Of a stretch of DNA of 53,326 bases, positions 15,792-41,252 are shown piece by piece; positions within the stretch are counted from its first letter, which is position 1; each line of letters opens with the position of its first letter. The translations under genes and the position numbers were made by a program. The stretch is from contig NZ_NSIU01000013.1 of the NCBI RefSeq assembly GCF_002633015.1, positions 1-53,326 of the forward strand, given 5' to 3'. The notes under the pieces are model-generated. The model had not been told where the DNA came from, ran no database searches, and was given only the letters and a program-made list of their open reading frames with translations. Source of the stretch: Sulfuricurvum sp. PD_MW2. Lineage in GTDB: Bacteria; Campylobacterota; Campylobacteria; Campylobacterales; Sulfurimonadaceae.

Positions 15792-17336
15792 TTAACGAAC
15801 AAGGTCGAAGAAGTAGTCGGTTGTAGCAATATTTTTGGTATCTTCATCCAATTGGTCAAGAACTTTGTTCGTGATCCAAGTGAGAAGATTTAACGCACCG
15901 TCATATCCGCTGATAGAGTAGCGGTGGAGATGATGACGGTCGAAAATCGGGAATCCGATATAAATCAACGGAGTTCCTGTATCGCGCATCAACTCTTTTC
16001 CGTAGCTGTTACCGATCATGAAATCAACCGGTTCAGTGAAGAGAAGTGAACGCATTGCCCACAAATCTTTACCTGCCCATACATGGAGGCTGTCTTTTGC
16101 CGGAGATGTATCAAGCAATGCTCTCATTTCAGCTTCCCAGCCGTTCGGTGCATTATGGCAAAGAACGTGAGTCGGCTCAGCACCCATCTCTAGCAAGAAT
16201 GAAACAACACCGAGAAGGAAGTCAGGATCACCCCAGATAGCGAATTTTTTACCGTGCATGTACGGATAGCTGTCTTGCATTGCATCAACAAGGCGGCCAC
16301 GCTCAGTTTTAAGTTTTTGCGGAACTTCAGTTCCAGTCAATTCAGCCAATTTCATGACAAACTCATCGGTACCTTTAAGACCGATCGGGTTAGAGCATCC
16401 ACCTGAATGTTTCCAACGTTTTTCTACCATTTTCATGGTTTTAGACGTTGCGTATTTTTGCAATGAGATCGTTGCACTTGAATTGATACAATCTTTTGCG
16501 TCTTCTAGTTTTGTTCCGCCTTGGAACATTTCGTAGTTACCGGCAGGCATATCCCATTGATCAGAGTGGTCACCCAACATGATATAGTCTGTACCAAACG
16601 CTTCTACGATGCTTTTTACGGATCGGAGGCTTCCAATATACGTTTCAAAACCTGGGATGATGTTGATACGTTGTTTTGTCTCACCTTTTTGACCTTCAGT
16701 GAGTTGGCTCATGATACCGTGCATCATGTTGTCATAACCTGTAATATGGCTTCCTACGAATGAAGGAGTGTGCGCATACGGAACCGGATAATCTGTTGGA
16801 AGATACTCTCCTCCGTCTTCTTCTTTCGCTGCAAGGATAAATGCACCGAGGTCATCCCCGATAACTTCTGCCATACACGTCGTTGAAACAGCGATCATTT
16901 TAGGTTTATAGACTGCCGCACAGTTTTTAAGACCCTCTTTCATGTTCACCAATCCACCGAATACCGCAGCATCTTCAGTCATAGAGTCAGATACACATGG
17001 TGTCGGCTCTTTGAAGTGTTTGGTAAAGTAAGATCGGAAATACGCTACACATCCGTGGCTTCCGTGAACGTACGGCATAGTCCCTTCGAATCCGAGAGCA
17101 ACCATGACAGCCCCGAGAGGTTGACATGCTTTTGCCGGATTGACGGTAATCGCTTCACGAGCAAGGTTTTTCTCACGGTAATCCCATGATTTAGTCCACT
17201 CAGCGATTTCATCTACTTTCGCAGGGTTGATTGCGAGCATAGAAGATTCAAATTGTTTTTTGTTTGCGAGTACTTCTTTGTACTCCGGGCGTTTAAACAG
17301 GTCTTTCCCGTTTACGATTTTTTCTACTTCTTGCAT
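15792..17336 (-). CDS. nifK: Nitrogenase MoFe protein beta chain
   Basis: Beta subunit of the alpha2-beta2 dinitrogenase that carries the P-cluster between alpha and beta. It is 514 aa, typical. P-cluster ligand cysteines are visible in NPAKACQPLGA, HGSHGCVAYFRSYF and STTCMAEVIGDD; the Ser next to the third is present as usual. The N-terminal region (EVLANKKQFE, EWTKSWDYREKN) and LGDHSDQWDMPA are typical of NifK. It starts 4 bases after nifD, with GGAAGG upstream, and is the last gene of nifH-119aa-nifD-nifK before a strong terminator. Confidence 0.98.
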   Translation of the reverse strand: MQEVEKIVNGKDLFKRPEYKEVLANKKQFESSMLAINPAKVDEIAEWTKSWDYREKNLAREAITVNPAKACQPLGAVMVALGFEGTMPYVHGSHGCVAYFRSYFTKHFKEPTPCVSDSMTEDAAVFGGLVNMKEGLKNCAAVYKPKMIAVSTTCMAEVIGDDLGAFILAAKEEDGGEYLPTDYPVPYAHTPSFVGSHITGYDNMMHGIMSQLTEGQKGETKQRINIIPGFETYIGSLRSVKSIVEAFGTDYIMLGDHSDQWDMPAGNYEMFQGGTKLEDAKDCINSSATISLQKYATSKTMKMVEKRWKHSGGCSNPIGLKGTDEFVMKLAELTGTEVPQKLKTERGRLVDAMQDSYPYMHGKKFAIWGDPDFLLGVVSFLLEMGAEPTHVLCHNAPNGWEAEMRALLDTSPAKDSLHVWAGKDLWAMRSLLFTEPVDFMIGNSYGKELMRDTGTPLIYIGFPIFDRHHLHRYSISGYDGALNLLTWITNKVLDQLDEDTKNIATTDYFFDLVR

Positions 17337-17340
17337 CGTC

Positions 17341-18810
17341 TCAACCTTCCTTTTCCCATGGTGCTTTACTGTGAGCCCATACAGGTGAATTAATAGCTAA
17401 ATCCATATCTTGTGCGAAAATCGCGAATCCGTCGTATCCGTGGTATGGACCGCTGTAATCCCATGAGTGCATTTGGCGGTATGGGAGACCCATTTTTTGG
17501 AATACATACTTCTCTTTAATCCCTGAAGCTACAAGGTCAGGTTGAAGTTTTTTAACGAATGCTTCAAGCTCATACTCATTGACGTCATCGTAGATAACGG
17601 TTGAGCGGAAAATCTCTTCTTTTGTACGTTTGTAGTCATCATCATGAGCGAACTCATAACCGGTTCCGATTACTTCCATACCCAAATCTTCATAAGCACC
17701 GATAACGTGACGTGGGCGGAGACCACCGACGAACAACATTACTTGTTTCCCTTCAAGACGCGGTTTATATTTCGCGATAACCGCATCGATCATCGGTTGA
17801 TATTTAGCGATAACTTCTTCACATTTCGCTTGGATGCTCTCATCAAAGAACGACGCGATTTTGCGAAGTGATTTAATAGTTTGGCTCGGTCCGAAGAAGT
17901 TATACTCTACCCAAGGAATCCCGAATTCTTTTTCCATGTGACGGCTGATATAGTTCATTGAACGATAACAGTGAAGCAGGTTCAATTTTACTTTTGGTGT
18001 CAATGCCATCTCTTTGAGAGTTGCATCTCCAGACCATTGAGCCACAACACGAAGACCCATTTCTTCAAGAAGAATACGGCTTGACCATGTATCACCACCG
18101 ATGTTATAGTCTCCGATGATCGCTACGTCGTACTCAGTCGGTGTAACGTCGCTTGCATCGATGTGACTAAGATCGCCTTCGAAAACATAGTCACGGATCG
18201 TATCGTTCGCAATGTGGTGACCGAGTGATTGAGAAACCCCACGGAACCCTTCACAGTTTACCGGAACGATCGTTTTACCGATTTCTACCGCTTTTACTTT
18301 TGCAACAGCAGCGATATCGTCACCGATCAAACCGATCGGACACTCTGATTGGACAGAGATACCGTTGTTGAGTGGGAAAAGTGTTTCGATTTCATCGATA
18401 CATTGACCCAATTTTTTATCTCCGCCGAAAACGATGTTGTTTTCTTGGAAATCCGAACAGAAGTTCATCGTAACGAATGTATCAACACCGGTTACACCGA
18501 TGTAATAGTTACGACGACCCGCACGGCTGTATTGACCGCATCCGATAGGACCATGAGAAATATGGATCATGTCTTTGACCGGACCCCATACAACCCCTTT
18601 TGACCCTGCATAAGCACAACCACGTTGGCTCATGACACCCGGAACAGTTTTTTTGTTAGAGCGGACATCACCGCAGGTTTTTTGGTTTTCGTCATTCGGA
18701 GTACCGACACCAATGTGTTTTTCACGGTTTTTTGCCGCTTTCTCCGGATACGCTTTTAAGATCTCTTCAATGGCCGCTTTTTGTTTGGCTTCTAAAGTTT
18801 CTGGACCCAT
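17341..18810 (-). CDS. nifD: Nitrogenase MoFe protein alpha chain
   Basis: Alpha subunit holding FeMo-co. It is 489 aa from ATG 18810, chosen because AGAGGTG lies just before it; the reading frame stays open a further 63 bases upstream into the neighbouring gene. FeMo-co ligands are Cys281 ([10 protein letters not shown]) and His448 ([14 protein letters not shown]). P-cluster cysteines are in [17 protein letters not shown] and [11 protein letters not shown]. No VnfD or AnfD features are seen: the Mo-type [15 protein letters not shown] is intact. It sits between the 119-aa gene and nifK in a tight operon. Confidence 0.98.
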
Positions 18811-18824
18811 AATACACCTCTTCC

Positions 18825-19184
18825 TTACGCAACTTCGATGCGGAATTGTTCCATCGTATCGAGATTTTTGCACAATGCCATTGTTTCATCATCACCTGCA
18901 TCAAGACGTTTTGAAAGCTCTGACATTTGGTAACGGTTCATGTAGATCATGTATTTTTGAGCACGATCCGGGTTCTCTTCTTTGAAATAGTGAACCATAG
19001 CTTTGAACAAGAACGTATTTTTGTTCGTGTAACTCAACCACATTTTATCTTTGTCTTTGGTACCCATCAACAATTTGATTTCGTTAACATCGCTAAGATC
19101 AACATCTGCCAATTTTTCAACTACTTTTTCATCCGGAACTTTATTCCCCATATCAGCTGGGAAGTGAAAACCTAAAATAAACAT
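18825..19184 (-). CDS. Uncharacterised 119-aa protein between nifH and nifD
   Basis: A soluble 119-aa protein of charged helical character, placed between nifH and nifD where other organisms usually have nothing or the PII-like nifI genes. It is not a PII protein: there is no T-loop or TGxxGDGKI motif. Visible segments are [29 protein letters not shown], a helix with [25 protein letters not shown] and a terminal acidic helix ([22 protein letters not shown]). The arrangement (short N-term, NTF...YF segment, then a helical tail with acidic residues) faintly recalls CowN, the CO-protection protein of nitrogenase, but I cannot claim homology. SD AAGGAGA precedes ATG 19184; nifD follows after 14 bases. 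A direct role with nitrogenase is inferred from position only. Confidence 0.8.
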
Positions 19185-19261
19185 CTTGTCTCCTTTTTCT
19201 GTTGTTTTCTTTTCATTATTTAAAGATGTTACAGGTCATAGAACACTATGACGACCATTGA

Positions 19262-19283
19262 AGATCCCTCAAAAGAGGAATCT
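19262..19283 (-). promoter_or_regulatory. Stem-loop between nifH and the 119-aa gene
   Basis: On the minus strand a 9-bp stem (AGATTCCTC with GAGGGATCT, one G-T pair) closes a TTTT loop 14 bases after the nifH stop. It lacks a following T-run, so it more likely stabilises nifH mRNA or attenuates partially, giving nifH more transcript than nifDK. Confidence 0.6.
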
Positions 19284-19297
19284 CCGGGGTTACACTA

Positions 19298-20266
<969 letters not shown>

Positions 20267-25263: not shown

Positions 25264-26087
25264 AATGAAAATGCATAAATATTTTCGAATTTGATATCTC
25301 TCGGTTCACCATAACTCATATGGATAAAACTCCCTTTTTTCTGAAAATGGTATTTCTCAAATAAAGCAACCGCTTTCGTATTCCCCATCGGGATATCGGC
25401 AAAGACTTTTTTGAGCCCTCTAAAATACAGAACCCCTTGCATCATCTTCTCCGCTTCCTCTTCAAATCCCTCGCGACATTGCCACGGGCCCAGATAAACG
25501 CCACGTGCATTTATAACACTAGAGTGTTGAAAAGAATTAGCCAACGCAAATTTGAGCGAGCTGTTGCGTTCCATCTCGCCTTCCATAAAGCTCATCCGAT
25601 TTTCGCTGAACGTTTCATAATCGATACGACGAATAATCGCATCAAAATTACCACTGTCAAGTTCTTTTGCCTGGGCGTTGGTAAAACTAAACGGCGGTAC
25701 TTTTCCTACGTTGAGATAACGCCCTACCTCCATGACTGAAGTAAACCCATACCCTTTGAAAAAAGGTTCCAATGCTGGATTGGCGTGGAGATATAAGGAT
25801 GGATGGTCTGCATTTAAAACACCAAATAGAGTGTCAAAAAGACGTTTACCAAGCCCCTGATTTTGATGTGATGGTTTGACCATAAAATATTTGATCATTG
25901 CGGAGGTTTCAAACTCTATTGCCATCACTGCACCCACCAATGCACCCTCCTCATACACACCGTAGCACAAATGAGGAGAATGCATCATCATGAGTTTGAC
26001 ATGGTACCCATCCAATAACCAACCTACTTCTTCGGCAATTTTGGTAAGTTCCGCCACATCGGCGTATTTGAGCCAACCTATAAACAC
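25260..26087 (-). CDS. Two-part GNAT acetyltransferase
   Basis: A 275-aa protein. The N-terminal GNAT domain (about 1-125) has the acetyl-CoA loop VKPSHQNQGLGKRLF and FFKGYGFTS. The C-terminal half (about 140-275) resembles the second GNAT-like domain found in YitH-type proteins (GVYLGPW, then IPMGNTKAVALFEKYHFQKKG), probably without its own catalytic loop. It overlaps the nifV 3' end by 10 bases, so it is translationally coupled to homocitrate synthase. Its substrate is unknown; the coupling suggests a nif-related metabolite or protein. Confidence 0.85.
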   Translation of the reverse strand: MFIGWLKYADVAELTKIAEEVGWLLDGYHVKLMMMHSPHLCYGVYEEGALVGAVMAIEFETSAMIKYFMVKPSHQNQGLGKRLFDTLFGVLNADHPSLYLHANPALEPFFKGYGFTSVMEVGRYLNVGKVPPFSFTNAQAKELDSGNFDAIIRRIDYETFSENRMSFMEGEMERNSSLKFALANSFQHSSVINARGVYLGPWQCREGFEEEAEKMMQGVLYFRGLKKVFADIPMGNTKAVALFEKYHFQKKGSFIHMSYGEPRDIKFENIYAFSL

Positions 26088-27193
26088 GCTGCATCCTGAT
26101 AAAGAGATTTGAGTTCATACGTCTCTAATACCCGCTTACGAGAGGTGACGATTTCACGTATTTTAGGGAGAAGATCGCCAAGAATCGAATTATCCGCACG
26201 GATTCCCATCCGTGCCAAATGGTAGCGGATTGTTGCACTTCCCGAATGCTTTCCGATAGGGAAAGAGCTTTGCAATCCCACCTCACTTGGTTCATAAGGT
26301 TCATACGCATGAGAATCCTTCATCATTCCGCTCGCATGAATACCGCTCTCATGAGCAAAAAGACGCTCACCCACGATAGGGGCATTCGGCATGAGAGGCA
26401 TATTAGCAGCATAAGAGACGCTCAGGACCAGTTCGCGAATTGCCATCGGATCAATCGTTCTATGCTCACCGTATAGATGTTTGAGTGCCATCAAAATTTG
26501 CTCAAACGAGGCATTACCCGCCCGTTCACCCAACCCGATCACCGTCGTATTCATCGAAACGGCTCCCGCATCGATCCCACTTAGGGCATTGGCATTGGCC
26601 AAACCAAAATCGTTATGCGTATGCATCTCGATAGGTAGCAGATCCAAATCACACAACGCTTTGATCACATCATACGTCTGTGTCGGTGTCATAATTCCTA
26701 CCGTATCACAATAACGGAAACGATCCGCACCGCATTCACGTGAAAGGCTCATAACATCACGAATAAAGTCTAAGGAGCCGCGCGAACTGTCTTCTCCTCC
26801 GATACAGACAAAAAGACTTTCCCGCTTAGCTGCTCTGACAACCCTCTCTACTTCACGGAGCATAGAGGATTTGTTCCCTCCAAATTTAACATCGATCAGT
26901 AAATCAGAAATCGGTATTGAGAGATCAACTGCCTGCACTCCACATGAAAGAGAAGAGTCCAAATCCTCCATTTTCATCCGGTTCCACGTCATCATACGTG
27001 CGTTCAGTCCAAGTCCCAGCAACTCTTTTATATCCTCACGCTCTTTGACACCCATCGCCGCGATACCGATTTCGAGTTCATCCGCACCACACACATCGAG
27101 CAAAGTCGCTATCCGGACTTTTTCGGCGGTATTAAAAGCTACGTAGGGAGCCTGTTCCCCGTCGCGTAAAGTAGTATCATTGATGAGCGCCAT
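26078..27193 (-). CDS. nifV: Homocitrate synthase
   Basis: Condenses acetyl-CoA and 2-oxoglutarate to R-homocitrate, the organic ligand of FeMo-co. It is 371 aa. The TIM-barrel N-terminus INDTTLRDGEQAPYVAF, the metal-binding HTHNDFGLANANAL, VNTTVIGLGERAGNAS-like segment (here MNTTVIGLGERAGNAS) and HESGIHASGMM are intact. It is close in length to NifV and shorter than isopropylmalate synthases, and lacks their regulatory domain. SD AGGAG precedes the ATG, 10 bases after the nifB stop. A downstream GNAT overlaps. Confidence 0.96.
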   Translation of the reverse strand: MALINDTTLRDGEQAPYVAFNTAEKVRIATLLDVCGADELEIGIAAMGVKEREDIKELLGLGLNARMMTWNRMKMEDLDSSLSCGVQAVDLSIPISDLLIDVKFGGNKSSMLREVERVVRAAKRESLFVCIGGEDSSRGSLDFIRDVMSLSRECGADRFRYCDTVGIMTPTQTYDVIKALCDLDLLPIEMHTHNDFGLANANALSGIDAGAVSMNTTVIGLGERAGNASFEQILMALKHLYGEHRTIDPMAIRELVLSVSYAANMPLMPNAPIVGERLFAHESGIHASGMMKDSHAYEPYEPSEVGLQSSFPIGKHSGSATIRYHLARMGIRADNSILGDLLPKIREIVTSRKRVLETYELKSLYQDAACL

Positions 27194-27203: not shown

Positions 27204-28619
27204 TTAGTTTGCTTCTAACTCTTCCGGCAAATTGAAATATTTGCGTGTCGCTTTGAGTACCGATGCTTCGATCGGTTGATACGCATAATCTTGATCAGCA
27301 ACAATGCCGGCTGCAGCCAGATCCCCCTGAGGACATCCGCCGATTTTTGCCGTGAGGATCAATTTTACATCTTTGAGACGATCCAAAATCGGTTGCAACG
27401 GATTAGTTCCATCGGGTCCGGCGCAGTATTCGGCTTCCACTTTGCGATGGTGGATAAAGCGTATTCCCTTATCCCCCGCTTCGTAAATCAAAAACTCTCT
27501 TACACTTCCGAAGTGTTGGTTAATCATCCCCTCGCCTGCCGTCGTCACAGCTACGAGAATTGTATGACCGTCACTGCTAAGCTCGGCTTTTTCTTTGCGG
27601 ACACGCTCATTGGCTTGATCGAGGAAAAATCGGAACTCTTCGATTTTTGCCTGAGCCTCTTGACGCGCTTCAAGATCGTATTTGATTTGCAGTTCATCAA
27701 AACTAAGCCCAGAAAACGTATCTTTGGTAAATTCGGCTCCGCGATCTTCACCGATCAATCCTACCGCATCGGCGCGGCATTGACGGCAGTGCTGCATTAG
27801 TTTCATATCCATACCGCACGCTTCTTGCACTTCCATTTGCTGTTGATCGGTTGCGCTTGGAATACCGTCAAGAGCGAATTTGGTTCCGAACTCCGGTTCG
27901 GAGAGGATCGGCATAATGTTATGCAAAAATACCCCGATCTCTTTGAGCTTTTTGGAGACTTCAGGGAGATGTTTATCGTTGATCCCCGGAATCAAAACCG
28001 AGTTTGCTTTTATCAAAATCCCTTTTTCTGCACATAGACGCATCCCCTCTATTTGGCGTTCCAAAAGGATTTGCGCCGCTTCACGTCCGTAATAGCGTTT
28101 GTTGTTATAAAAAATCCAAGGATAAATCTGGCTTCCTATCTCACCGCTCTCATCAACGCTATTAATGGTCACGGTAACATGATCAATATTGTATTTGACT
28201 AATTCATCGATATAGCTTGCGAGTTCCAATCCGTTTGTCGAAAGGCATAGCTTCAGATCGGGAGCAAATTTACGTACCAAGGCAAACGTCTCAAATGTTT
28301 TGAGCGGATTAGCTAACGCATCTCCCGGACCAGCAATCCCCAAGACACTCATCCGCTGTACTTCACCGCCGACGAACATCACTTTTTTCGCCGCTTCTTC
28401 GGGAGTGAGACGCTCCGAGGTAACCCCGGGACGGCTTTCGTTGGAACAATCGTATTTTCGGTTGCAGTAGTTACACTGAATGTTACATGCGGGTGCTACC
28501 GCAACATGGATGCGGGCATAGTGGTGATGTGCCCCTTCTGAATAACATGGATGATTATGAATCTTATCTTTGATATCATCGGGCATAAAAGCTTCGCTAT
28601 GGCTTGACGAACAGCTCAT
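27204..28619 (-). CDS. nifB: FeMo-co biosynthesis radical SAM protein
   Basis: Builds the NifB-co 8Fe-9S-C cluster, precursor of FeMo-co. It is 471 aa from ATG 28619, with AAGGAGATAC before it; the frame is open 48 bases further upstream but that start lacks an SD and would begin outside the leader. Radical SAM motif CNIQCNYC is at Cys45, Cys49, Cys52, with SPGVTSERLTPEEA-like and GIAGPGDAL downstream, CxxC-type residues (MQHCRQCRADAVG) and a C-terminal NifX-like domain from about 355 (VAVTTAGEGMINQHFG). The fused NifX domain is the classical long NifB. A sigma-54-type element is at 28693-28708. First gene of nifB-nifV-GNAT. Confidence 0.97.
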   Translation of the reverse strand: MSCSSSHSEAFMPDDIKDKIHNHPCYSEGAHHHYARIHVAVAPACNIQCNYCNRKYDCSNESRPGVTSERLTPEEAAKKVMFVGGEVQRMSVLGIAGPGDALANPLKTFETFALVRKFAPDLKLCLSTNGLELASYIDELVKYNIDHVTVTINSVDESGEIGSQIYPWIFYNNKRYYGREAAQILLERQIEGMRLCAEKGILIKANSVLIPGINDKHLPEVSKKLKEIGVFLHNIMPILSEPEFGTKFALDGIPSATDQQQMEVQEACGMDMKLMQHCRQCRADAVGLIGEDRGAEFTKDTFSGLSFDELQIKYDLEARQEAQAKIEEFRFFLDQANERVRKEKAELSSDGHTILVAVTTAGEGMINQHFGSVREFLIYEAGDKGIRFIHHRKVEAEYCAGPDGTNPLQPILDRLKDVKLILTAKIGGCPQGDLAAAGIVADQDYAYQPIEASVLKATRKYFNLPEELEAN

Positions 28620-28692
28620 TGTATCTCCTTGAGAATAGATCAAATGATTCTTGGCCTCATCCAGCACGTAATCATTTTCTTAACAAGACAGA

Positions 28693-28796: not shown

Positions 28797-31583
28797 TTAG
28801 AGAATATCAGGAGAAGGGATGGAGAAAAGATAACCCTGCGAATAATCAACACCCAATTCCAAAAGGGTATTAAAGATTGGATCGTCTTCGACGAATTCCG
28901 CAATGGTTTTAATCCCTTTCTTCTGGGCAAAAAAGAGGATACTTTGCACTGTAAAGAGATGATCGCTGTCACGATTGACATTTTTGATCAATGAACCGTC
29001 AATTTTGATGTAATCGACATCGAGTTTACTCAAATAGCTAAAGTTCGAATACCCCGTTCCAAAATCATCAATCGCGATCTTACACCCAAACGGTTTGACC
29101 GTTTTGATAAATTCGATCACCTCTTCATAATTGACAATACCCTCGGATTCAACGATCTCAAAAACGACACGGGAAGCCGCTTTTGAGCTTTCGAGCATTT
29201 GATAAACATACAGACGGGTCTCTTCCGAAACGATATCGGACATAGTCAGATTTAACGAGAATTCAAATTCAAGATTTTCAAACATTGCAAACGTTTTTGC
29301 AATCATAATTCGGGTCAATTTATCATAAAGCTTTGCTTTTTTAGCATGTTCCAAAAACCAAAACGGGGTCAATACTTTTCCATCCGGCTCTATCAGACGA
29401 ATCAATGACTCGTATTTGACGATTTTACGTGTTTGATTATCGATTATTCCCTGAAAATATGGGACGATGCGATCCTCTTCGATTGCCGATTTTATTTTAT
29501 CAAACATCCAGATATTATTACGGGCTTTTTCGGCCAAAGCGGTATTGTCATTGAAGAATATGAGTTTTGAGCGCTTCTCTTTGGCCTCTTTGAGCGCCAT
29601 GTGAGCTAGATTGTATACATCCGTATAGGTAGCGTGCGCAATTCCAGCAGAAACACTGATCGAAATATCATGCCCCGCAATCTGATATTTATAATTTTCA
29701 AGTTTATTGATATGCTCAATCAAATGGCCTCTCAATAACTCATCAAACTCTCTTTTCCCACATATAATCGCGAATTCATCTCCGCTGATACGGTAAAGAT
29801 AGTCATGTTCGACCGTCTCTTCGAGCCGACGCGCAAATGCTTTAAGCAACTGATCGCCGATCGAATATCCGAAATAATCGTTGATCGTAGAAAATCGGTC
29901 GATATTGAGAAGCACCAATGTCGTCTCCTCTTTACCGTTCTCCAAATCCCCCAACAAAGCGGTACGGTTTTTTAACCCGCTGAGATTATCGATCAACTGA
30001 CGACGGATAATCATATCTTTAGCCACGAGTTCCGATACATCCACACGAGATGCGATGAACTCTACTACATTTCCCCTATCGTCAAATATCGGAGCGATTA
30101 CCGATTTAACATAATATTCTTGACCGCTTTTTGAAAGATTTTTAAAGGTCTCTTTCCAAACATGCCCCTCTTTGATCGTTGACCAGAGCTCTTTAAAGAG
30201 CTCCTTCGGGGTATCCGGATGACGAACCAAATTGTGGTTTTTCCCGATTAACTCTTCTCGCGAATATCCAGAATTTTTGCAAAATGCATCATTAACGTAC
30301 GTAATAATACCGCTTGCATCGGTTTTGGAGACAATGGAGCTTTCGTCCAAAACCATTTTGTATTGATCGAGGATTTTAATACTGTCATCCAGTTCCCCCT
30401 GCGTCGTATTGACCAAATGGGTCAACGATTTGAGCATCGTATGATTGTGCTGATGCGTTGATTCTTGAAGTTTATTTTGATTTATCTCTTTCGATTCGCT
30501 CAAAGAGAGGGTTGTCGTCGTGATATTAAGCAGCTGATTACCGGATGGAGAGTGAAAAAATTCGCCATACGTGAACATACCGGCTGTCGGTGCGATTTCG
30601 TTGATTAATCCGAATTCGTAGTTCAACTGATCTTTTAAAAACAGTTTGCGCACCGAACACGAATAGATATAGGTCGCTTCTACAGGTGTAGAAGCGATAT
30701 CTTGTCGCAAACTATTAGCCTGATCGAGTATCTCTTCGATATTTCCGATCGCAAAACGGACTTCTTCTCCATCATGAAAGTGCCCGGCATAGACAAATCC
30801 GCCATCTTCGCTCTGCGCAATCATGGATCGGGCAATATGAACTCCGTCTTCCACTTTGATCAAAGGAAATTCGATCGCACTGGCAGGAATCTTTGCGATT
30901 GTCTCTTCTCCGAGATAGTGAGTATAGAGCTCTTTTACCGATCGACCGTCAATTTCGTAGATAATATTTTTCAGAGCACGGGTGATTGTCATCGATTTAC
31001 CGATCATTGTCCAGTTGAGCGAATAGGTAGGATGAACTTCAAGCACTTCACTTTGTAATACCGCGATAACTACACCGTCTTCATAAAGAGTCCCCTCTTT
31101 ACAAATATAGGTGCGGCTAAATGTCAAATCATCCCCTGCATTTCCACCGGCAATGACAATATCGTTTCGAACAGAAGTAAACCCGTTCAAAAAGGATTCA
31201 GAATCACTTTTAAGCCCTTCACTAAGAACAATACACGCCTTTGTATCTGGCGTAAGAATCTCTTGTGCGGCACGTACACCGTGGTCATAATCGGATCGAG
31301 GAAAATAGAACGTTTTAACAACCGTAGAATCAAATAATGACGCAGAGATGATAATCTGTCCTGTTGTCATCATACCATCAATCACCTCGCCGGCTGTCGT
31401 AGCTCCGATAAGCAGGGCATGAGGAAGTTTGGAGGTGATCAGTTGAAGAATGGGTTCTATCTGTTTTCTATCGATCACACCGCTAAAAAGCTGTATAAAG
31501 ACCGATCCTCGGTGAGAGAGAATATGGTCGAGAAATATCTGGAGGTCTTCGACCGTATCATAGCGATGATTGATCAATCGCAT
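28797..31583 (-). CDS. FIST sensor, PAS, GGDEF, EAL protein
   Basis: A 928-aa cytosolic protein. The FIST_N and FIST_C sensory domains (about 1-365) contain LLIGATTAGEVIDG, FLNGFTSVRNDIVIAGGNAGDD and ATYIYSCSVRKLFL; family knowledge says FIST binds small ligands such as amino acids. A PAS domain follows (about 415-530: VNDAFCKNSGYSREELIGKNHNLVRHPDTP, the typical Aer/methyl-accepting PAS). The GGDEF motif reads SGDEF at 600-604, so cyclase activity is uncertain. EAL motif is ESL (near 725) with IDDFGTGYSN and KIDGSLI intact. Start 31583 is chosen over 24 bases upstream because AAGGGG is 7 bases before it. It is bounded by nifB (minus) and the NifX-like unit (plus). Confidence 0.92.
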   Translation of the reverse strand: MRLINHRYDTVEDLQIFLDHILSHRGSVFIQLFSGVIDRKQIEPILQLITSKLPHALLIGATTAGEVIDGMMTTGQIIISASLFDSTVVKTFYFPRSDYDHGVRAAQEILTPDTKACIVLSEGLKSDSESFLNGFTSVRNDIVIAGGNAGDDLTFSRTYICKEGTLYEDGVVIAVLQSEVLEVHPTYSLNWTMIGKSMTITRALKNIIYEIDGRSVKELYTHYLGEETIAKIPASAIEFPLIKVEDGVHIARSMIAQSEDGGFVYAGHFHDGEEVRFAIGNIEEILDQANSLRQDIASTPVEATYIYSCSVRKLFLKDQLNYEFGLINEIAPTAGMFTYGEFFHSPSGNQLLNITTTTLSLSESKEINQNKLQESTHQHNHTMLKSLTHLVNTTQGELDDSIKILDQYKMVLDESSIVSKTDASGIITYVNDAFCKNSGYSREELIGKNHNLVRHPDTPKELFKELWSTIKEGHVWKETFKNLSKSGQEYYVKSVIAPIFDDRGNVVEFIASRVDVSELVAKDMIIRRQLIDNLSGLKNRTALLGDLENGKEETTLVLLNIDRFSTINDYFGYSIGDQLLKAFARRLEETVEHDYLYRISGDEFAIICGKREFDELLRGHLIEHINKLENYKYQIAGHDISISVSAGIAHATYTDVYNLAHMALKEAKEKRSKLIFFNDNTALAEKARNNIWMFDKIKSAIEEDRIVPYFQGIIDNQTRKIVKYESLIRLIEPDGKVLTPFWFLEHAKKAKLYDKLTRIMIAKTFAMFENLEFEFSLNLTMSDIVSEETRLYVYQMLESSKAASRVVFEIVESEGIVNYEEVIEFIKTVKPFGCKIAIDDFGTGYSNFSYLSKLDVDYIKIDGSLIKNVNRDSDHLFTVQSILFFAQKKGIKTIAEFVEDDPIFNTLLELGVDYSQGYLFSIPSPDIL

Positions 31584-31668
31584 ATAAATTCCCCTTTTTT
31601 TCACCATTTAGTTATATTGTATACAAGAATAACTGAATTTAATTAAGTACTATCACAAAAGTTAGTTC

Positions 31669-31684
31669 AAGAATAAAAATTGCA
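31669..31684 (+). promoter_or_regulatory. Sigma-54-type element of NifX-like unit
   Basis: AAGAAT-AAAAA-TTGCA. Predicted start about 31695, 22 bases before the ATG. Confidence 0.65.
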
Positions 31685-31716
31685 TTTCCTATTCGAGAGT
31701 AAAAGGAGTTTCGATC

Positions 31717-32157
31717 ATGATCGTTGCCATACCGCTGGATGCAAAAGAGAGAGTCTATCATAACAATCCGTGTGCGTGTACGATGTTCTCTTTGTACGAA
31801 GTGATCGGAAATCGCAAAGACATTCGGTATCGTCACATCGAAACACGTCTCAATCCATGGGAAAAGTATGCCGGTGATATGGTCAAAGATCCAAAAATGA
31901 TGGCGTGCGAATGCGAAAGTACATTGGCTCAAAATCCCCACCATATCAGCGAACACTACACACTGCTACAGGCAATCGGCAAATGCAATACTCTCATCGT
32001 AGATCAATATTGTCTCAATACCCTCTATGCGATGAAAAATGTCGGAATCAAACTCCATAAAATTCCCCCTTTTATCAAAACAGCTACTGCAGCGATCGAG
32101 CATTTCGTGATCGGAACGGAGATTGCCGAGCATCTGCGTTACATCCATCCGGCATAA
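31717..32157 (+). CDS. NifX/NafY-type FeMo-cofactor-binding-like protein
   Basis: A 146-aa protein with the Di-Nase_FeMo-co (PF02579) outline: it opens MIVAIPLDAKE, has a Cys pair in NNPCACTMFSLYEV, then KYAGDMVKDPKMMACECES and a C-terminal half AIGKCNTLIVDQYCLNTLYAMKNVGIKLHKI equal to the family's cofactor-cradle region. Six Cys are scattered, more than is usual in NifX. It would carry or store NifB-co/FeMo-co intermediates. SD AAAGGAG precedes the ATG. It heads a unit with the Tpx-like gene (11-base gap). Its promoter element shares register with nifH. Confidence 0.82.
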   Translation: MIVAIPLDAKERVYHNNPCACTMFSLYEVIGNRKDIRYRHIETRLNPWEKYAGDMVKDPKMMACECESTLAQNPHHISEHYTLLQAIGKCNTLIVDQYCLNTLYAMKNVGIKLHKIPPFIKTATAAIEHFVIGTEIAEHLRYIHPA

Positions 32158-32168: not shown

Positions 32169-32675
32169 ATGCGCATTATCCATCAATCGAGTGTTTTAGA
32201 ACTGTGTGATTTGCCCCTCGACATCGGCTACGCATCTGAAAAAGTAAACCTCAAGGATTACACGGGAACCATTGTCACAATCGGCGGTCAAAACGGGACA
32301 ACGCAACTCCTCATCAGCGCACCCTTTATCGATGACGCGCTCCTTGCTCAGGTTAGCGAGATCGATACGCTCCTCTCTCTCAATGCTCTGGATTCGATCA
32401 CAAAAGGGATCATCGTTGCTTCCGATACCCATCATCTGCCACATATAAACGGCTGGCTGTGCGGATACGATGTTGACGAAGCATTCGGAGACTATTACGG
32501 TGTACGGATGAATAATGATACACTCGCAAAAACTCTCTTTATCCTCTCTAAAGACGGAGCGGTGTTTTACCATGAAATCCTCAAGGATCTTGATGCACCC
32601 TTCAGCATCGAAAAAGCTCTTGCCAAAATCGTTGCGGCACAAAGCTGCTATACCGGCAAAGGGTGCCACGGATAA
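32169..32675 (+). CDS. Thiol-peroxidase-like protein lacking peroxidatic Cys
   Basis: A 168-aa protein with the thioredoxin-fold layout of atypical 2-Cys peroxiredoxin Tpx: TGTIVTIGG, LLISAPFIDDALL, TKGIIVASDTHHL, NGWLCGYDV, FGDYYGVRM, LAKTLFILSKDGAVFYHEIL and a C-terminal helix. In Tpx the peroxidatic Cys follows the segment here read APFIDDALL, so it is replaced; the resolving Cys (WLCG) is kept. A C-terminal SCYTGKGC adds two Cys. It is therefore unlikely to be a normal peroxidase; a redox sensor, chaperone or cofactor-handling role is inferred. It follows the NifX-like gene by 11 bases and shares its promoter. Confidence 0.7.
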   Translation: MRIIHQSSVLELCDLPLDIGYASEKVNLKDYTGTIVTIGGQNGTTQLLISAPFIDDALLAQVSEIDTLLSLNALDSITKGIIVASDTHHLPHINGWLCGYDVDEAFGDYYGVRMNNDTLAKTLFILSKDGAVFYHEILKDLDAPFSIEKALAKIVAAQSCYTGKGCHG

Positions 32676-32706
32676 ACGAAGGTGACATTTTTGTCCCTTC
32701 TGTGTT

Positions 32707-32722
32707 AAGAATGCAAAATGCA
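32707..32722 (+). promoter_or_regulatory. Sigma-54-type element of SIR2-clpP-clpX unit
   Basis: AAGAAT-GCAAA-ATGCA. Predicted start about 32733, 22 bases before the ATG. It is almost identical to the element at 48604-48619. Confidence 0.65.
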
Positions 32723-32754
32723 ATCCTCTTTCCAAAGTTCCCAAAGGGGTCACG

Positions 32755-33585
32755 ATGGACACCATGATAGAGACAATCAAAAAAGAGTTGCGTAACCAAA
32801 GCACCATCCCCTACTTCGGTTTGGGTGTGTTTGAGGGAATAACGACAAAAGAGGGAGAAAGCGTTCCACATGACAGCGATTCCCTCATATTGGCGATGAA
32901 CGCTGGCAGAGCTATGGCACCGCGTCTGATGTATGAATACTCACGTGCCGCAATGCATTTGGAACAGCGTCGTGGGGTTGAGTATATGACCCAGCTTATC
33001 AACCACATCTATACCAAACCTTTTGAGCCGACCCCCCTTCACAAGGCGATCATCGATATGTCCCCGCGCTATATCATCGATACCAACCGCGATACTTCAT
33101 TCCAAGAACTTCTCGCCTATACACCGCATTGTCTCATCATCGGGAAATCGCGCATCATGGGCAACGATTACCGCTATGAGGTGTATGAATACGACGTCGA
33201 AAACCAAAAATACTTTTTGGTAGACGAAGAGGTATTGGAGACTGCCCAAAAAATCCTCTTTAAACCGATGGGTTCCCCGCTCCCTAATCCCAGCTTTGTT
33301 ATTAGCGATGCCGACTATGTCGACTGGCTCACCGAAGCGATGGGGGGATTTGCGGTGCCCAAAGTGCTCAAAACCTACCGAAAAGCAAAAAAATACCTCT
33401 TTTTAGGGACATTTTTCGATCGTGATACCGACCGTATGGTGGCAAACGAACTCTCCCTTGATTTGGAGGGGGGATACGTCATTACTGACAAAGAACTCGG
33501 AAAAAAAGAGAAAAAGTTCATCGACAAACACCATCTCGAGGTGATTCAGATGTCATTACCCGAATTTATCAAAGCATTCATCTAA
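32755..33585 (+). CDS. SIR2-like nif-cluster protein
   Basis: A 276-aa protein resembling the SIR2-like family found beside nif genes in other diazotrophs: IPYFGLGVFEG (the family has YxGPGV), a segment of paired prolines and Arg/Ser (APRLMYEYSRAAMHLEQRRG), EPTPLHKAI and RYIIDTNRDTSFQELL. The Rossmann fold would bind NAD or a nucleotide. The normal sirtuin catalytic His/zinc site is not evident, so enzymatic deacylation is not claimed. Function in nitrogen fixation is unknown. AAAGGGG precedes the ATG; clpP follows after 12 bases and clpX after that, with one upstream sigma-54-type element. Confidence 0.75.
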   Translation: MDTMIETIKKELRNQSTIPYFGLGVFEGITTKEGESVPHDSDSLILAMNAGRAMAPRLMYEYSRAAMHLEQRRGVEYMTQLINHIYTKPFEPTPLHKAIIDMSPRYIIDTNRDTSFQELLAYTPHCLIIGKSRIMGNDYRYEVYEYDVENQKYFLVDEEVLETAQKILFKPMGSPLPNPSFVISDADYVDWLTEAMGGFAVPKVLKTYRKAKKYLFLGTFFDRDTDRMVANELSLDLEGGYVITDKELGKKEKKFIDKHHLEVIQMSLPEFIKAFI

Positions 33586-33597
33586 AAGGAGATTTTT

Positions 33598-34191
33598 ATG
33601 CCGTACATCCCTACCGTCAAAGATGTTTCCCCGCGTGGAGAGCGTTATTTCGATCTCTTCTCCAAACTTCTCGGAGACCGTGTCATCGTCATCACCGAAG
33701 CGATCGACGATCACATGATGGGCGTTATCGTCTCTCAGCTACTCTATCTGGAGGCGATGGATTCCGAAGAGCCGATCCACATGTACATCAGCTCCCCCGG
33801 AGGTTCGGTCATGGCAGGGCTTGCCATCCTCGATACGATGAATCTCATCAATGCTCCTGTGCATACCTACGCCATGGGTCTCGTTGCGTCAATGGCGGCG
33901 GTTCTGTTTACCTGCGGAGAAAAAGGGCATCGCTACATGCTCCCCAACGCTGAAGTGATGATCCATCAGCCGCTCGGAGGCTATTCAGGTCAGGCGAGCG
34001 ACATCGAGATCCACACCAAACATATTCTCAACCTCAAACGCCGTTTGTATCTCATCCTCTCCGAAGCGACAGGTCAGAGCACCAAGGTGATCGAAAAAGA
34101 GTCCGATCGTGATAACTATATGGAAGCCGAAGCCGCCATCAAATTCGGTCTCGCCGATGAGATCATCACTAAATTCAGTGCCAAGGAGTAA
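33598..34191 (+). CDS. clpP: ATP-dependent Clp protease proteolytic subunit, divergent paralogue
   Basis: A 197-aa serine peptidase subunit that forms tetradecamers degrading unfolded proteins fed by ClpX. The catalytic triad is Ser98 (LVASMAAVLF), His123 (MIHQPLGG) and Asp172 (DRDNY), all present, and there is no long propeptide. Compared with what I know of Campylobacter housekeeping ClpP, the motifs differ (SPGGSV versus SPGGVI; VASMAA versus AASMGA), suggesting a second dedicated paralogue. It starts 12 bases after the SIR2-like gene, with SD AAGGAG, and ends 3 bases before clpX, so all three form one operon. Confidence 0.93.
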   Translation: MPYIPTVKDVSPRGERYFDLFSKLLGDRVIVITEAIDDHMMGVIVSQLLYLEAMDSEEPIHMYISSPGGSVMAGLAILDTMNLINAPVHTYAMGLVASMAAVLFTCGEKGHRYMLPNAEVMIHQPLGGYSGQASDIEIHTKHILNLKRRLYLILSEATGQSTKVIEKESDRDNYMEAEAAIKFGLADEIITKFSAKE

Positions 34192-34194
34192 AGG

Positions 34195-35412
34195 ATGAGT
34201 ACCAGTGAGAAAACCTGTTCGTTTTGCGGACGCCCTCAGAGCGAAGTGAAAAAAATGTTCTCCTCCGAGACAACCCACATCTGCAACGAATGTGTCACCA
34301 CCTGCTCCGCGATCCTCCAAAAAGAGGTGCGCTACGAGCAACGCTCCGCAATGCAGCAGCAGCTCCCCGTCCCTGAGAAGATTGTCGAGTTTTTGGACAA
34401 ATATATCATCGGTCAGGAGGATGCGAAAAAAGTGCTCGCAGTTGCACTCTACAACCACTACAAACGGATCGAAAATCCTATCTACAACAACGTGGAACTC
34501 GAAAAGTCCAACATTATGCTCGTAGGTCCGACGGGAAGCGGTAAGACGCTTTTGGCAAAATCGCTCTCTAAAATCATGCAAGTGCCGTTCGCTGTCGCCG
34601 ATGCGACCGCATTGACCGAAGCAGGTTATGTCGGTGAAGACGTCGAGAGTATCCTCAGCCGCCTCCTCGCCGCCGCCAACTACGACATCGACCTGGCACA
34701 GCGCGGTATCATCTACATCGACGAAGTGGATAAAATTGCCCGTAAGGGTGAGAGTTCGACGATGGGGCGTGACGTATCGGGTGAGGGGGTACAGCAAGGG
34801 CTATTGAAGATTTTAGAGGGTGCGGAAGTGTATGTTCCGATCAAAGGGAGCCGCAAAAACTCCACCACTGAGACGGTACTTTTTAACACCTCACACGTCC
34901 TGTTTGTCTGCGGCGGTGCGTTTGTAGGACTCGTCCCCGATACCCACACCAAAAAATCCAACAAAGTGGGATTTGCGAAAAGTACAACGGATAAAACCGC
35001 CAAACCTAAAAAGATCGATGCCAAAGCGCTTGTCCATTACGGGATGATCCCCGAGTTCATCGGTCGTATACCCGTAGTAGCACAGCTGGGAGAACTCACC
35101 AAAGATCAGATGATCCAAATCCTCACCGAGCCGGACAACGCCCTCATCAAACAGTTTCAGGCGTTTTTCGACATGGACGGTATCGAGCTGAACTTTGACA
35201 ATAAAGCCCTCGAAGCAGTAGCTCAAAAAGCGATTGATCGAGGAGTCGGAGCACGTGGATTACGGGGAATTATAGAGGAAGCGATGTTACCGTTGCAGTA
35301 CAGCTGCCCATCGAAGAAAGATTTGCAAAGTGTCACAATCACCGATGCGGTTATCGAAGACCCGAGCAAAGAGCCGATCTACACCTACAAATCAGATAAA
35401 GAGCAAGAATAA
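34195..35412 (+). CDS. clpX: ATP-dependent Clp protease ATPase subunit
   Basis: A 405-aa AAA+ unfoldase. Parts: N-terminal C4 zinc finger (CSFCGR and CNECV), Walker [14 protein letters not shown], pore loop GYVGED, Walker [12 protein letters not shown], a VGF ClpP-contact loop (the usual is IGF) and sensor-2 [11 protein letters not shown]. It recognises substrates, unfolds them and passes them to ClpP. It follows clpP by 3 bases. Family knowledge: Azotobacter vinelandii carries a nif-linked ClpX2 that lowers NifB and NifEN levels. Placement under the nif-type promoter suggests a similar role here. It converges with glnS, 7 bases away. Confidence 0.95.
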
Positions 35413-35419: not shown

Positions 35420-37681
35420 TTATTGTAACTTCTGCATTACCAGATCATTGACAACTTGAGGATTTGCTTTTCCTCCGCTCACTTTGAGTACCTGCCCGAC
35501 AAAGAATCCGAACAGTTTTGTATTACCCGCTTTGTATTTTTCGACATTGTCGGGGTTTTTTGCCATGACATCATCAATGATCGGCAAGATGATCGCAGGA
35601 TCACTGATTTGCACCAGTCCCTGTGCTTCGACGATTTGAGCCGGGTTATCACCGCTTTGCACCATCGCTTCAAATACCTGTTTGGCGATTTTGTTGGAGA
35701 TGATCTCCTCATCGATCATTTTCACCAACTCAGCAATCTGCGCAGGGGTGAATTTCAGCTCATTAGCCTCTTTTTCTTTGAGTTCACGCGCCACTTCGTT
35801 GGCGACGATATTCGCGATGGTAATCGGGCTGTTATGGATAGAAAGAGCCGCTTCGTAAAAGGATGAGAGTTTCTCATCGCGTGCAAGAGTATTCGCCACT
35901 TCACTATTGAGTTTCAGTTCATTTGTGTATTTGTCAAATCGAGCCTGTTCTGCTTCGCTCATCGGGGCTACTTCACCCTCGATATGGACTTTTTTCTCCG
36001 GTGCTTTGCGCTCTGTTTTGGCTGCACCCTCGTCCGCTTTGTTCTTTTTGTTCCATGAGTCTTTGAGTCCGACAATTTTGTTGAATACCGGATGTTCGTC
36101 CGTGTAATCGATCGGATCGGCATAAAAATACCCCTGACGCTCAAACTGGAAACGGACGTCCGGTTTCTCGGCGATGAGAGCCGGCTCAACCAGAGCATTT
36201 TTGATGATTTTGAGCGACTCAGGATTGAGATCTTCGATCCCTTCCGGTGCTTCGCAGGTATAGAGACGATCATAAAGTCTGACCTCGACCGTTTTAGCGG
36301 TAGTTGCTTCGACCCATTGGATTGCACTTTTGACCTTGATACCGCTCGTATCGGAACCGCTTTTGGAGTCGGGATGGTACATCGCGATGATCTCGGTGAT
36401 ATTTCCCTGTTCGTCTTTGATCACCTCTTTGCAGGTGATGATATAGGCGTGTTTGAGTCTTACTGGCTGTTCCGGTGTGAGGCGGTAAAAGCCTGCTGGC
36501 GGATTCTCGCTGAAATCGTCGCGCTCGATGTAGATCTCACGGGAGAACGGAAGTTTTCGTGAACCCTCTTTCGGTACGTCTTCAGGGTAGTACGAAGCGT
36601 CTAGTTCTTCGTTCCCCTCGTAATTTTCAATCGTCACTTTGAGCGGGTCGAGGACACACATGACGCGCGGTACTTTGGTGTTCAGATCATCGCGGATGCA
36701 GAATTCGAGCTGTGCGACATCGACCATCGAGTTGGCTTTCGCGATACCGATTTGATGACAGAAATTGAGGATCGATTCGGGGGTATACCCGCGTCGGCGC
36801 AATCCCGCGATGGTCGGCATTCGTGGGTCATCCCATCCACTGACGTAGTTTTCGTTGACCAGTTCGAGGAGCTTTCGTTTACTCATGACGGTATAGTTGA
36901 TCCCCAAACGTGCAAACTCATGCTGATACGGGCGCGGTGATGTCAGCCCCAGCGTATCGAGTACCCAGTCGTAGATGTCGCGATTGTTTTCAAATTCGAG
37001 GGTACAGATCGAGTGAGAAACCCCCTCGATGTAGTCGGAGAGGCAGTGTCCGTAATCGTACATCGGATAGATATGCCATGCATCCCCCGTGCGGTAGTGA
37101 TGGGCGTGACGGATGCGGTAGAGGAGCGGATCGCGCATCTTCATGTTCGCCGCACTCATATCGATCTTGGCACGCAGGACGTGCTCTCCATCTTTGAATT
37201 CACCGTTTTTCATCCGCTCCAGCAGATCGAGATTTTCTTCGACGCTCCGCTCGGCATAGACACTGCGGCGACCGGGTTCGGTCACCGTTCCGCGATATTC
37301 ACGGATCTCCTCTTCGCTCAAGCTGTCGACGTAGGCTTTGCCCATTTTGATGAGCTGTTTTGCGTATTCGTAGAGTTCAGGGAAATAATCGGAGGTGTAG
37401 CGAACATTCCCCTCCCATTTGAAGCCAAGCCATTCGACGGCGTCTTTGAGTGCTTCGACGTAGCGGGTATCTTCGGTCGTCGGGTTGGTATCGTCCATCC
37501 GCAAGTTACAGTGACCGTTGTAGTCGCGTGCGATACCGAAGTTGATCGCGATCGATTTGGCGTGTCCGATGTGGGGGAAGCCGTTTGGCTCAGGGGGGAA
37601 GCGTGTCACGACCTCGTTATATTTGTGTGCTTTTATATCTTCTTCGACGATGGTGCGTAAAAAATCTTTGCTCTCGTTCAT
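35420..37681 (-). CDS. glnS: Glutaminyl-tRNA synthetase fused to YqeY domain
   Basis: A 753-aa class I synthetase. Rossmann catalytic core has the HIGH motif PEPNGFPHIGHAKSI and the KMSKS-like MSKRKL. Anticodon-binding beta-barrels follow to about 550. The C-terminal ~190 residues form a GatB/YqeY domain (helices ending KVSGGKANPQVVNDLVMQKL) that aids tRNA binding. Most Campylobacterota, to my knowledge, make Gln-tRNA through GatCAB, so a GlnRS-YqeY fusion is unusual for the lineage. TATAAT is at 37734-37739. It is placed between clpX and the accessory patch. Confidence 0.95.
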   Translation of the reverse strand: MNESKDFLRTIVEEDIKAHKYNEVVTRFPPEPNGFPHIGHAKSIAINFGIARDYNGHCNLRMDDTNPTTEDTRYVEALKDAVEWLGFKWEGNVRYTSDYFPELYEYAKQLIKMGKAYVDSLSEEEIREYRGTVTEPGRRSVYAERSVEENLDLLERMKNGEFKDGEHVLRAKIDMSAANMKMRDPLLYRIRHAHHYRTGDAWHIYPMYDYGHCLSDYIEGVSHSICTLEFENNRDIYDWVLDTLGLTSPRPYQHEFARLGINYTVMSKRKLLELVNENYVSGWDDPRMPTIAGLRRRGYTPESILNFCHQIGIAKANSMVDVAQLEFCIRDDLNTKVPRVMCVLDPLKVTIENYEGNEELDASYYPEDVPKEGSRKLPFSREIYIERDDFSENPPAGFYRLTPEQPVRLKHAYIITCKEVIKDEQGNITEIIAMYHPDSKSGSDTSGIKVKSAIQWVEATTAKTVEVRLYDRLYTCEAPEGIEDLNPESLKIIKNALVEPALIAEKPDVRFQFERQGYFYADPIDYTDEHPVFNKIVGLKDSWNKKNKADEGAAKTERKAPEKKVHIEGEVAPMSEAEQARFDKYTNELKLNSEVANTLARDEKLSSFYEAALSIHNSPITIANIVANEVARELKEKEANELKFTPAQIAELVKMIDEEIISNKIAKQVFEAMVQSGDNPAQIVEAQGLVQISDPAIILPIIDDVMAKNPDNVEKYKAGNTKLFGFFVGQVLKVSGGKANPQVVNDLVMQKLQ

Positions 37682-38185: not shown

Positions 38186-38343
38186 AGCAGACCTTTAAAA
38201 ATATTTCTTAACAATAATAACCGCTAAATTCTTAAAAGCATTTGTATTCTACATTCCCCGTTATAACTACTAACAGATTGCTATAATACGCTTCAAACCC
38301 ACAGAAAATAAAAGTATCATTGAAATACATCCTACAGATAGGT

Positions 38344-38349
38344 TATAAT
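38344..38349 (+). promoter_or_regulatory. -10 box giving a leaderless mntA transcript
   Basis: TATAAT ends 6 bases before ATG 38356, so the predicted transcript start is at or next to the start codon. A second TATAAT lies at 38282-38287 and could drive a longer transcript. Confidence 0.5.
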
Positions 38350-38355
38350 CATTGC

Positions 38356-38646
38356 ATGAAACGACAAGACGTACTTAAAGTATTAGAATCGTACAAGCAA
38401 CATCATGCCGATGAGTTCGGGATCGTCCGAATTGGTGTATTCGGCTCTGTTGCACGCGATCAAGCAACGGAGCAAAGCGATGTTGATGTCGTGATCGAAA
38501 CCAAACAACCCAATCTTTTCAGACTTTCCCGCATCCGTCTCGACCTCGAAGAGCTTATGCACACCCATGTCGACCTTATCAGCTACCGTGAAAGCATGAA
38601 TACGTTTTTAAAAGAACGAATCCAAAAAGAAGCGATCTATGCCTGA
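38356..38646 (+). CDS. mntA: MntA-type nucleotidyltransferase antitoxin
   Basis: A 96-aa minimal nucleotidyltransferase. It carries the full GS-x10-D-x-D motif (GSVARDQATEQSDVD) and a late third acidic strand (HVDLIS). Family knowledge: MntA antitoxins AMPylate their HEPN toxin partner and silence it. The frame opens earlier with TTG at 38320, but ATG 38356 gives the normal length and sits just after a -10 box. Its last 8 bases overlap the HepT gene. Confidence 0.88.
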   Translation: MKRQDVLKVLESYKQHHADEFGIVRIGVFGSVARDQATEQSDVDVVIETKQPNLFRLSRIRLDLEELMHTHVDLISYRESMNTFLKERIQKEAIYA

Positions 38647-39010
38647 AAAGGCTCTGCTGATCGAAACCCTCACTCAGATTCACGGCGCTACTGAGCGCAT
38701 CCTCAAACGCTTCGAGCCTATCCGATCTCCCGATGATTTTTTAGAAGATGAAGCGGGTCATGAAAAACTTGATGCGATCTGTATGCAGTTGATCGCTATC
38801 GGCGAGAGCCTCAAAAATGTCGATAAAATCACCGATAAAAAACTGCTACCGAACTATCCTGCAGTTGATTGGAAATCGGTCAAGGGGATGCGCGACATTA
38901 TCAGCCATCACTATTTCGATCTTAATGCCGAAGCGGTATTTGATGTATGCAAAAATGATATTCAAACATTAAAAAAGACTATCGAACAGATACTTAGCGA
39001 TATTAAGTAA
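38639..39010 (+). CDS. hepT: HepT-type HEPN RNase toxin
   Basis: A 123-aa HEPN (DUF86) protein. The RNase and AMPylation motif R-x4-H-x-Y is seen exactly in RDIISHHY near residues 85-92, preceded by the usual IGESL helix and VDWKSVKGM. It is a predicted ribonuclease kept inactive by MntA (type VII toxin-antitoxin). Overlap with mntA by 8 bases supports coupled translation. The system sits in an AT-rich accessory patch. Confidence 0.9.
   Translation: MPEKALLIETLTQIHGATERILKRFEPIRSPDDFLEDEAGHEKLDAICMQLIAIGESLKNVDKITDKKLLPNYPAVDWKSVKGMRDIISHHYFDLNAEAVFDVCKNDIQTLKKTIEQILSDIK

Positions 39011-39045: not shown

Positions 39046-41252
<2,207 letters not shown>

Follow-up and report, generated by a model that had tools for sequence, protein, structure and literature searches.

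Background

The cellular control and clean-up of the FeMo-co assembly line are, to our knowledge, poorly known, and the engineering of nitrogenase is limited by the instability of NifB. In Azotobacter vinelandii, a clpX2 gene stands at the end of the array nifUSV-cysE1-nifWZM-clpX2. The title of a paper cited in PMC5715403 has this ClpX2 acting on NifB and NifEN under nitrogen-fixing conditions, and PMC3916325 reports 76% identity between it and an Azoarcus ClpX; the same paper places both clpX (azo2070) and clpP (azo2071) of Azoarcus BH72 under the control of NifA. E. coli ClpX is described as depending on six residues to recognise ssrA tags, T199 and H230 among them; with H230A or T199A/V, GFP-ssrA is degraded far less well, at a raised KM, and human ClpX, which carries Leu at both positions, does not degrade ssrA-tagged proteins (PMC7652416). 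ClpX is joined to its peptidase by a docking loop that packs into clefts of ClpP, and conservative changes of this loop impair binding (PMC7112951). Finally, the SIR2 family protein Rcc03262 of Rhodobacter capsulatus, whose gene neighbours that of NifT, was seen in the wild type but not found in a nifA double mutant (PMC6925177).

Here we study a locus of Sulfuricurvum sp. PD_MW2 (Campylobacterales), whose genome comprises 2.26 Mb in 76 contigs and is 99.99% complete. The window, i.e. the whole stretch of DNA analysed, is 53,326 nt long. An earlier note on it had suggested that a divergent clpP-clpX pair behind a SIR2-like gene encodes a complete nif-dedicated protease, which turns over cofactor-assembly proteins when fixation stops.

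Results and discussion

Gene content of the locus

The three genes lie on the forward strand as first described: the SIR2-like gene (276 aa, 32755-33585) is followed after 12 bases by clpP2 (33598-34191), and this after 3 bases by clpX2 (34195-35412). Upstream, on the same strand, are orf1 (146 aa, 31717-32157) and orf2 (168 aa, 32169-32675). The nif genes of the window are nifHDK, nifV, nifB, nifS and one NifX-type gene. On the reverse strand we find nifK, nifD and nifH (15792-20215; PF00148 twice, PF00142, with nifH above the TIGR01287 cut-off), nifV (26078-27193; TIGR02660, 465 bits, above cut-off) and nifB (27204-28667; TIGR01290, 576 bits), and on the forward strand nifS (40068-41252; TIGR03403, 621 bits), which directly follows clpX2 in many relatives. 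NifA is encoded on a different contig.

Several other genes lie in between. An ORF whose translation reads as glnS (35420-37681, reverse strand) is convergent with clpX2 and separates it from nifS in the window, and a nucleotidyltransferase and HepT-like (PF01934) pair at 38320-39010, also between clpX2 and nifS, resembles an MntA/HepT toxin-antitoxin module. Beside nifB and divergent from orf1, a FIST-PAS-GGDEF-EAL protein is encoded at 28797-31607, in the same place as in several Sulfuricurvum relatives. In the Sulfuricurvum STA_65 MAG, two contigs (L106, L107) show an identical nif-region gene layout with equal scores throughout.

Second copies of clpP and clpX

Had the pair been the only clpP and clpX of the genome, the idea of a dedicated protease would have fallen. 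The same genome, however, has more standard, housekeeping copies of clpP (C71:24736) and clpX (C75:25361) on other contigs, so that the genes of the nif region are divergent second copies.

ClpP2 contains the CLP_protease domain (PF00574, 235 bits) and an intact triad Ser98-His123-Asp172, which is invariant in 57 of 57 distinct ClpP2 sequences. Its divergence, noted before from motif wording, is borne out: it is 48% identical to the housekeeping ClpP of its own genome, falls with its relatives into one separate, long-branched clade (support 100/100), and scores 240.7 bits against a curated cut-off of 308.6 with the ClpP equivalog TIGR00493, passing only the subfamily model NF001368. Compared with housekeeping ClpP, the docking face carries Y60H, F49Y, I90Y and S16Y in 57/57 sequences and F82L in 56/57, at positions which, going by E. 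coli ClpP, we take to belong to the docking pocket or its close surroundings.

ClpX2 likewise retains the elements of a ClpX, namely the C4 zinc domain, Walker A and B, the GYVG pore loop, the sensor motifs and an equivalog match (TIGR00382, 508.6 bits), but is only 45% identical to the housekeeping ClpX of its genome and 50% to that of Klebsiella. In the tree, ClpX2 proteins are united in a single clade (100/100, with a warning of long branches) that excludes the ClpX of housekeeping type and of the outgroup, and within which those linked to clpP2 form one clade (98/99). The degron gate is altered throughout: the pore-2 residue T199 is replaced by G (G191 in the window) and the RKH-loop residue H230 by N or S (N222 in the window) in all 106 ClpX2, while standard ClpX has T and H in 31/31. 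Since these replacements are universal, and in view of the E. coli mutant and human ClpX data (PMC7652416), we specifically predict that ClpX2 has lost ssrA recognition.

The docking tripeptide of ClpX2 differs as well. Its first residue is V in all 58 clpP2-linked sequences (55 VGF, 3 VGL); elsewhere it reads MGF in 39 of 47 ClpX2 without clpP2, and LGF in 22 of 24 housekeeping ClpX. The remodelled ClpP2 pocket and the VGF loop would fit a co-adapted pair. The match could also be a signal of lineage, since the clpP2-linked ClpX2 form one clade and its sole member that has lost clpP2 (clade-A genome L034/L061) keeps VGF.

Co-occurrence with nif and gene order

Among 399 genomes drawn from Campylobacterales, nifH occurs in 89 and ClpX2 in 68, the latter spread over 29 genera. 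Both are found in 63 genomes, ClpX2 alone in 5, nifH alone in 26 and neither in 305 (compared by a Fisher test that ignores relatedness). Three of the five genomes with ClpX2 only are MAGs of 82-90% completeness, and one of the five (G396) has nifB and nifV beside clpX2. Linkage to nif is close: wherever clpX2 and nifH share a contig, they lie within 31 kb of each other (45/45). Agreement with nif is closer still for the SIR2-like gene than for ClpX2 (83 genomes with both, 10 with the SIR2-like gene only, 6 with nifH only) and is present in 67 of the 68 ClpX2 genomes. Conversely, 21 nif-containing genomes have the SIR2-like gene without ClpX2, so the ClpX2 protease would be dispensable for fixation there.

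Upstream of clpX2, the SIR2-like gene adjoins clpX2 or clpP2 in 57 of 60 loci, with clpP2 lying in between in 22/60; among 80 named loci retrieved via the SIR2-like gene, clpX2 adjoins in 70 and clpP2 in 49. Two main arrangements recur. The first, to which the window belongs, is orf1-orf2-SIR2-clpP2-clpX2, often followed by nifS and divergent from nifB; the second, found for example in Arcobacter sp. CECT 8985, is nifA-orf2-SIR2-clpX2-ferredoxin, without clpP2. In Sulfurospirillum-type loci, nifA is followed by the SIR2-like gene without orf2 or clpX2, and in a few Sulfurimonas-type loci the SIR2-like gene directly adjoins nifS. The conserved unit across loci is thus the SIR2-like gene with clpX2, usually together with orf2. 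The association of the SIR2-like gene with nif is the most widespread, followed by that of clpX2 and then of clpP2, and this may also be the order in which they were acquired.

Because clpX2 occurs without clpP2 in other lineages, at about half of the nif-linked clpX2 loci, the predicted complete ClpX2P2 protease is a lineage-specific add-on. The proposal of a complete nif-dedicated protease is partly supported. The window has both subunits with intact cores, nif linkage and a nif-type promoter element (see below), but the complete state does not extend to the family at large. At the many loci with ClpX2 but no ClpP2, the protein may work with housekeeping ClpP or alone as an unfoldase.

This distribution bears on an alternative that we consider unlikely, i.e. 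that ClpX2 mainly helps to assemble nitrogenase or FeMo-co as an ATP-dependent unfoldase or remodelling chaperone, which opens scaffolds or releases cofactor, with proteolysis secondary and ClpP2 added in one lineage. The lack of clpP2 at most deep-branching nif clpX2 loci would agree with such a role, as would the presence of assembly factors (the NifX-fold orf1, nifS and nifB) among the neighbours. However, nearly all ClpX2 keep an [IVML]GF ClpP-docking loop even where ClpP2 is missing, the ClpP2 triad has stayed intact over a long period of conservation, and Azotobacter ClpX2 affects the levels of Nif proteins, as far as the title cited in PMC5715403 tells.

Other duplications of clpP were observed in the survey. 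The Sulfurimonas-type genome G318 contains a nifS-nifU-clpP array (L203, 1465-2058) whose clpP is a recent duplicate of housekeeping clpP; this is an independent recruitment of clpP to nif, which we count in favour of a nif-dedicated protease. G248 also carries two ClpP, and a second ClpP occurs in one non-nif genus (f11 g17; G268, G280, G286, G298, G376 and G394). No ClpP match was obtained in two 99%-complete genomes, G137 and G183.

Promoter elements

The textbook sigma-54 consensus was discarded as a search tool, as its 187 matches in the window are not above chance. The sigma-54 element that had been proposed at 32707-32722 (AAGAATGCAAAATGCA) is not among the window matches to TGGCACN5TTGCW at up to three mismatches; five mismatches are counted by eye. 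Given this poor performance of the consensus, we used a matrix built from local nif promoters. The motif GAAC-N5-WTGC is common to the upstream regions of the relatives' nifH (16/21) and nifB (43/61), and 59 nifH/nifB promoter sites of relatives, picked by regular expression, entered the matrix; mononucleotide shuffles served as null, and the scores are approximate. With this matrix, the element GTTAAGAATGCAAAATGCAAT (32704-32724, forward strand), which spans the site proposed earlier, scores 14.1 bits before the SIR2-like gene, where shuffled sequence reaches 9.0 at its 99th percentile, and a second element, TTCAAGAATAAAAATTGCATT (31666-31686, forward strand), scores 14.3 before orf1 (shuffled 99th percentile 8.8).

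Across relatives, sites above threshold are found upstream of orf1 in 40 of 46 cases, of the SIR2-like gene in 30/113, of clpX2 in 2/104 and of clpP2 in none of 57. Where the SIR2-like upstream regions of relatives hold a clean element (AGAACRCAAAATGCA or GGAAYN5TTGCA), it mostly lies some 45 nt upstream of the start codon. The proposed element is thus a poor sigma-54 site by textbook standards but a good one by those of the local nif promoters, at a position conserved in relatives, and we infer that the SIR2-like gene, clpP2 and clpX2 are expressed under NifA. This has a consequence for timing. A promoter of the sigma-54/NifA type would yield the protease during fixation, and the Azotobacter title (cited in PMC5715403) names nitrogen-fixing conditions; action of the protease "when fixation stops", as originally envisaged, is therefore unsupported.

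orf1 and orf2

The orf1 product is likely a chaperone of FeMo-co precursors. Its AlphaFold model (pLDDT 89.9) has as top Foldseek matches the NifX of NifEN-NifX (9ian) and NafY (1p90), and 12 of 32 family members give a weak PF02579 match. The orf2 product, judged by a profile match to 2yzh (E 1.9e-13), has the fold of thiol peroxidases, but the peroxidatic Cys is missing. It carries a C-terminal YTGxGCH-type motif that is invariant in all relatives aligned; as a ClpX2 degron this motif is not favoured, since loci devoid of clpX2 (L148, L149, L151, L152) still have orf2.

The fold of orf2, together with the life of Sulfuricurvum-type hosts at oxic-anoxic interfaces, could suggest a general stress or oxygen-damage protease, which is expressed with nif and whose task, after exposure to oxygen, is to clear oxidised Fe-S proteins, nitrogenase among them, and not to set the levels of assembly proteins. 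The lost peroxidatic Cys speaks against this, and we hold it to be somewhat less probable still than a chaperone role of ClpX2.

The SIR2-like protein

By Pfam, the SIR2 match of the window protein is weak (19.9 bits, cut-off 24.5), although relatives of the same gene exceed the cut-off, and a sequence-profile search of the PDB gave no relevant match. The designation as SIR2-like is nevertheless justified by structure prediction: the AlphaFold model (pLDDT 83.5, pTM 0.86) matches over its whole length ThsA (VIA Z 17.7), KomC and DSR2, with Z ranging from 15 to 17.7. The active site is altered. The motif GAGxS has become G[LM]GVF, with an invariant Phe in place of Ser, and TTNxD has become DTNxD, whose Asn is kept in 44 of 45 Campylobacterota and lost in 7 of 7 proteobacterial relatives (DSWYD, DVWYD, DAWYD, DGWYD). 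Where genuine SIR2_2 neighbours have HG, no catalytic His is conserved, and Tyr146/Asp147 are found instead (placed by sequence spacing and strand order).

Relatives at 24-27% identity are encoded on 72 plasmids, all from genera with known diazotrophs. In the seven loci read (L276-L282, from Sinorhizobium, three Rhizobium, Mesorhizobium, Bradyrhizobium and Methylococcus), the gene lies in a nif cluster, mostly directly after nifT. These nif-cluster relatives in rhizobia, Bradyrhizobium and Methylococcus also lack the catalytic His, and in addition the Asn, and look catalytically dead. We found no described function for this nif-associated family. The SIR2-fold protein of the window is predicted to be catalytically dead as well, and would be a non-enzymatic nif accessory.

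These features also argue against an anti-phage NADase, with clpP2 and clpX2 belonging to a defence island that lies in the nif region by chance. Such a reading draws on the nearest solved folds (ThsA, KomC and DSR2), but it conflicts with the absent catalytic His, the replacement of the GAGxS Ser by an invariant Phe, the strict association with nif across several bacterial groups and the dependence of Rcc03262, beside NifT, on NifA (PMC6925177). PADLOC returned for the SIR2-like protein only a marginal PDC-M30A match (E 0.0055) and for ClpX2 only generic AAA matches, and the SIR2-like profile had no match in the phage collection. On the lost catalytic residues and the nif association we rejected the defence-system reading, which we regard as very improbable.

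Proposed role of ClpX2P2

The window pair is best read as a real, nif-dedicated second ClpXP, a variant of the Azotobacter ClpX2 theme. We think it fairly probable that the SIR2-like gene, clpP2 and clpX2 form a nif-regulon operon for a dedicated ClpX2P2, which is active during nitrogen fixation and whose substrates are separate from those of housekeeping ClpXP. In this scheme, ClpX2P2 would be made under NifA via the sigma-54-type elements while nitrogen is fixed, and ClpX2 would dock preferentially on ClpP2, ignore ssrA-tagged proteins and read another degron or rely on an adaptor. The substrates would be proteins of Nif cofactor assembly or of nitrogenase maturation (NifB, NifEN or further Fe-S proteins), with NifB and NifEN suggested by analogy to Azotobacter, and their removal would serve quality control or the setting of levels. 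Most speculatively, and guessed from adjacency, the non-catalytic SIR2-fold protein could in this lineage be an adaptor of ClpX2 or a partner that senses nucleotides for it; where a lineage has no ClpX2, the protein must then act otherwise or use housekeeping ClpX.

A broader proposal seems to us possible rather than probable: the widespread dead SIR2-fold family of nif clusters may be an adaptor or nucleotide sensor for the turnover of nitrogenase-assembly proteins, which in Campylobacterota was coupled to a ClpX2 with a rewritten degron gate and in one lineage to an orthogonal ClpX2P2 beside housekeeping ClpXP. A cell that carries, besides the housekeeping pair, a natural ClpXP with degron and docking residues of its own offers a direct route to a degron specific to nif and to an orthogonal protease, and the SIR2-like family represents a nif accessory gene common to rhizobia and sulfur-oxidising Campylobacterota.

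Comparison with known systems

As in Azotobacter vinelandii, a second ClpX is encoded among the nif genes of a diazotroph. However, Azotobacter ClpX2 is reported to share 76% identity with an Azoarcus ClpX (PMC3916325), while Campylobacterota ClpX2 are about 45-51% identical to the standard ClpX compared, with no proteobacterial ClpX compared exceeding ~51%; judged by these identities, which are an indirect measure, the two were probably recruited in parallel and may not be orthologues. Unlike Azotobacter ClpX2, moreover, that of Campylobacterota has a gene of SIR2 fold as companion and, in a single lineage, also a ClpP of its own. In Azoarcus BH72 both subunits are reportedly tied to NifA, and the passages of PMC3916325 on them name no SIR2-like partner. 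Compared with housekeeping ClpXP, ClpX2P2 keeps all motor and triad elements but differs in the degron-gate residues, the docking tripeptide and the ClpP docking pocket.

The SIR2-fold protein shares its fold over the full length with the NADases ThsA, KomC and DSR2 (Z 15-17.7), but differs from them in lacking the catalytic His, in having Phe for the GAGxS Ser and in being linked to nif instead of defence. Its full-length homologues in nif clusters are the nifT-linked SIR2 family proteins of rhizobia, Methylococcus and Bradyrhizobium (24-27% identity), to which the NifA-dependent Rhodobacter capsulatus protein (PMC6925177) can be likened by family name and NifT neighbour. Unlike the Campylobacterota loci, the nifT-linked loci read have no clpX or clpP beside the SIR2 gene.
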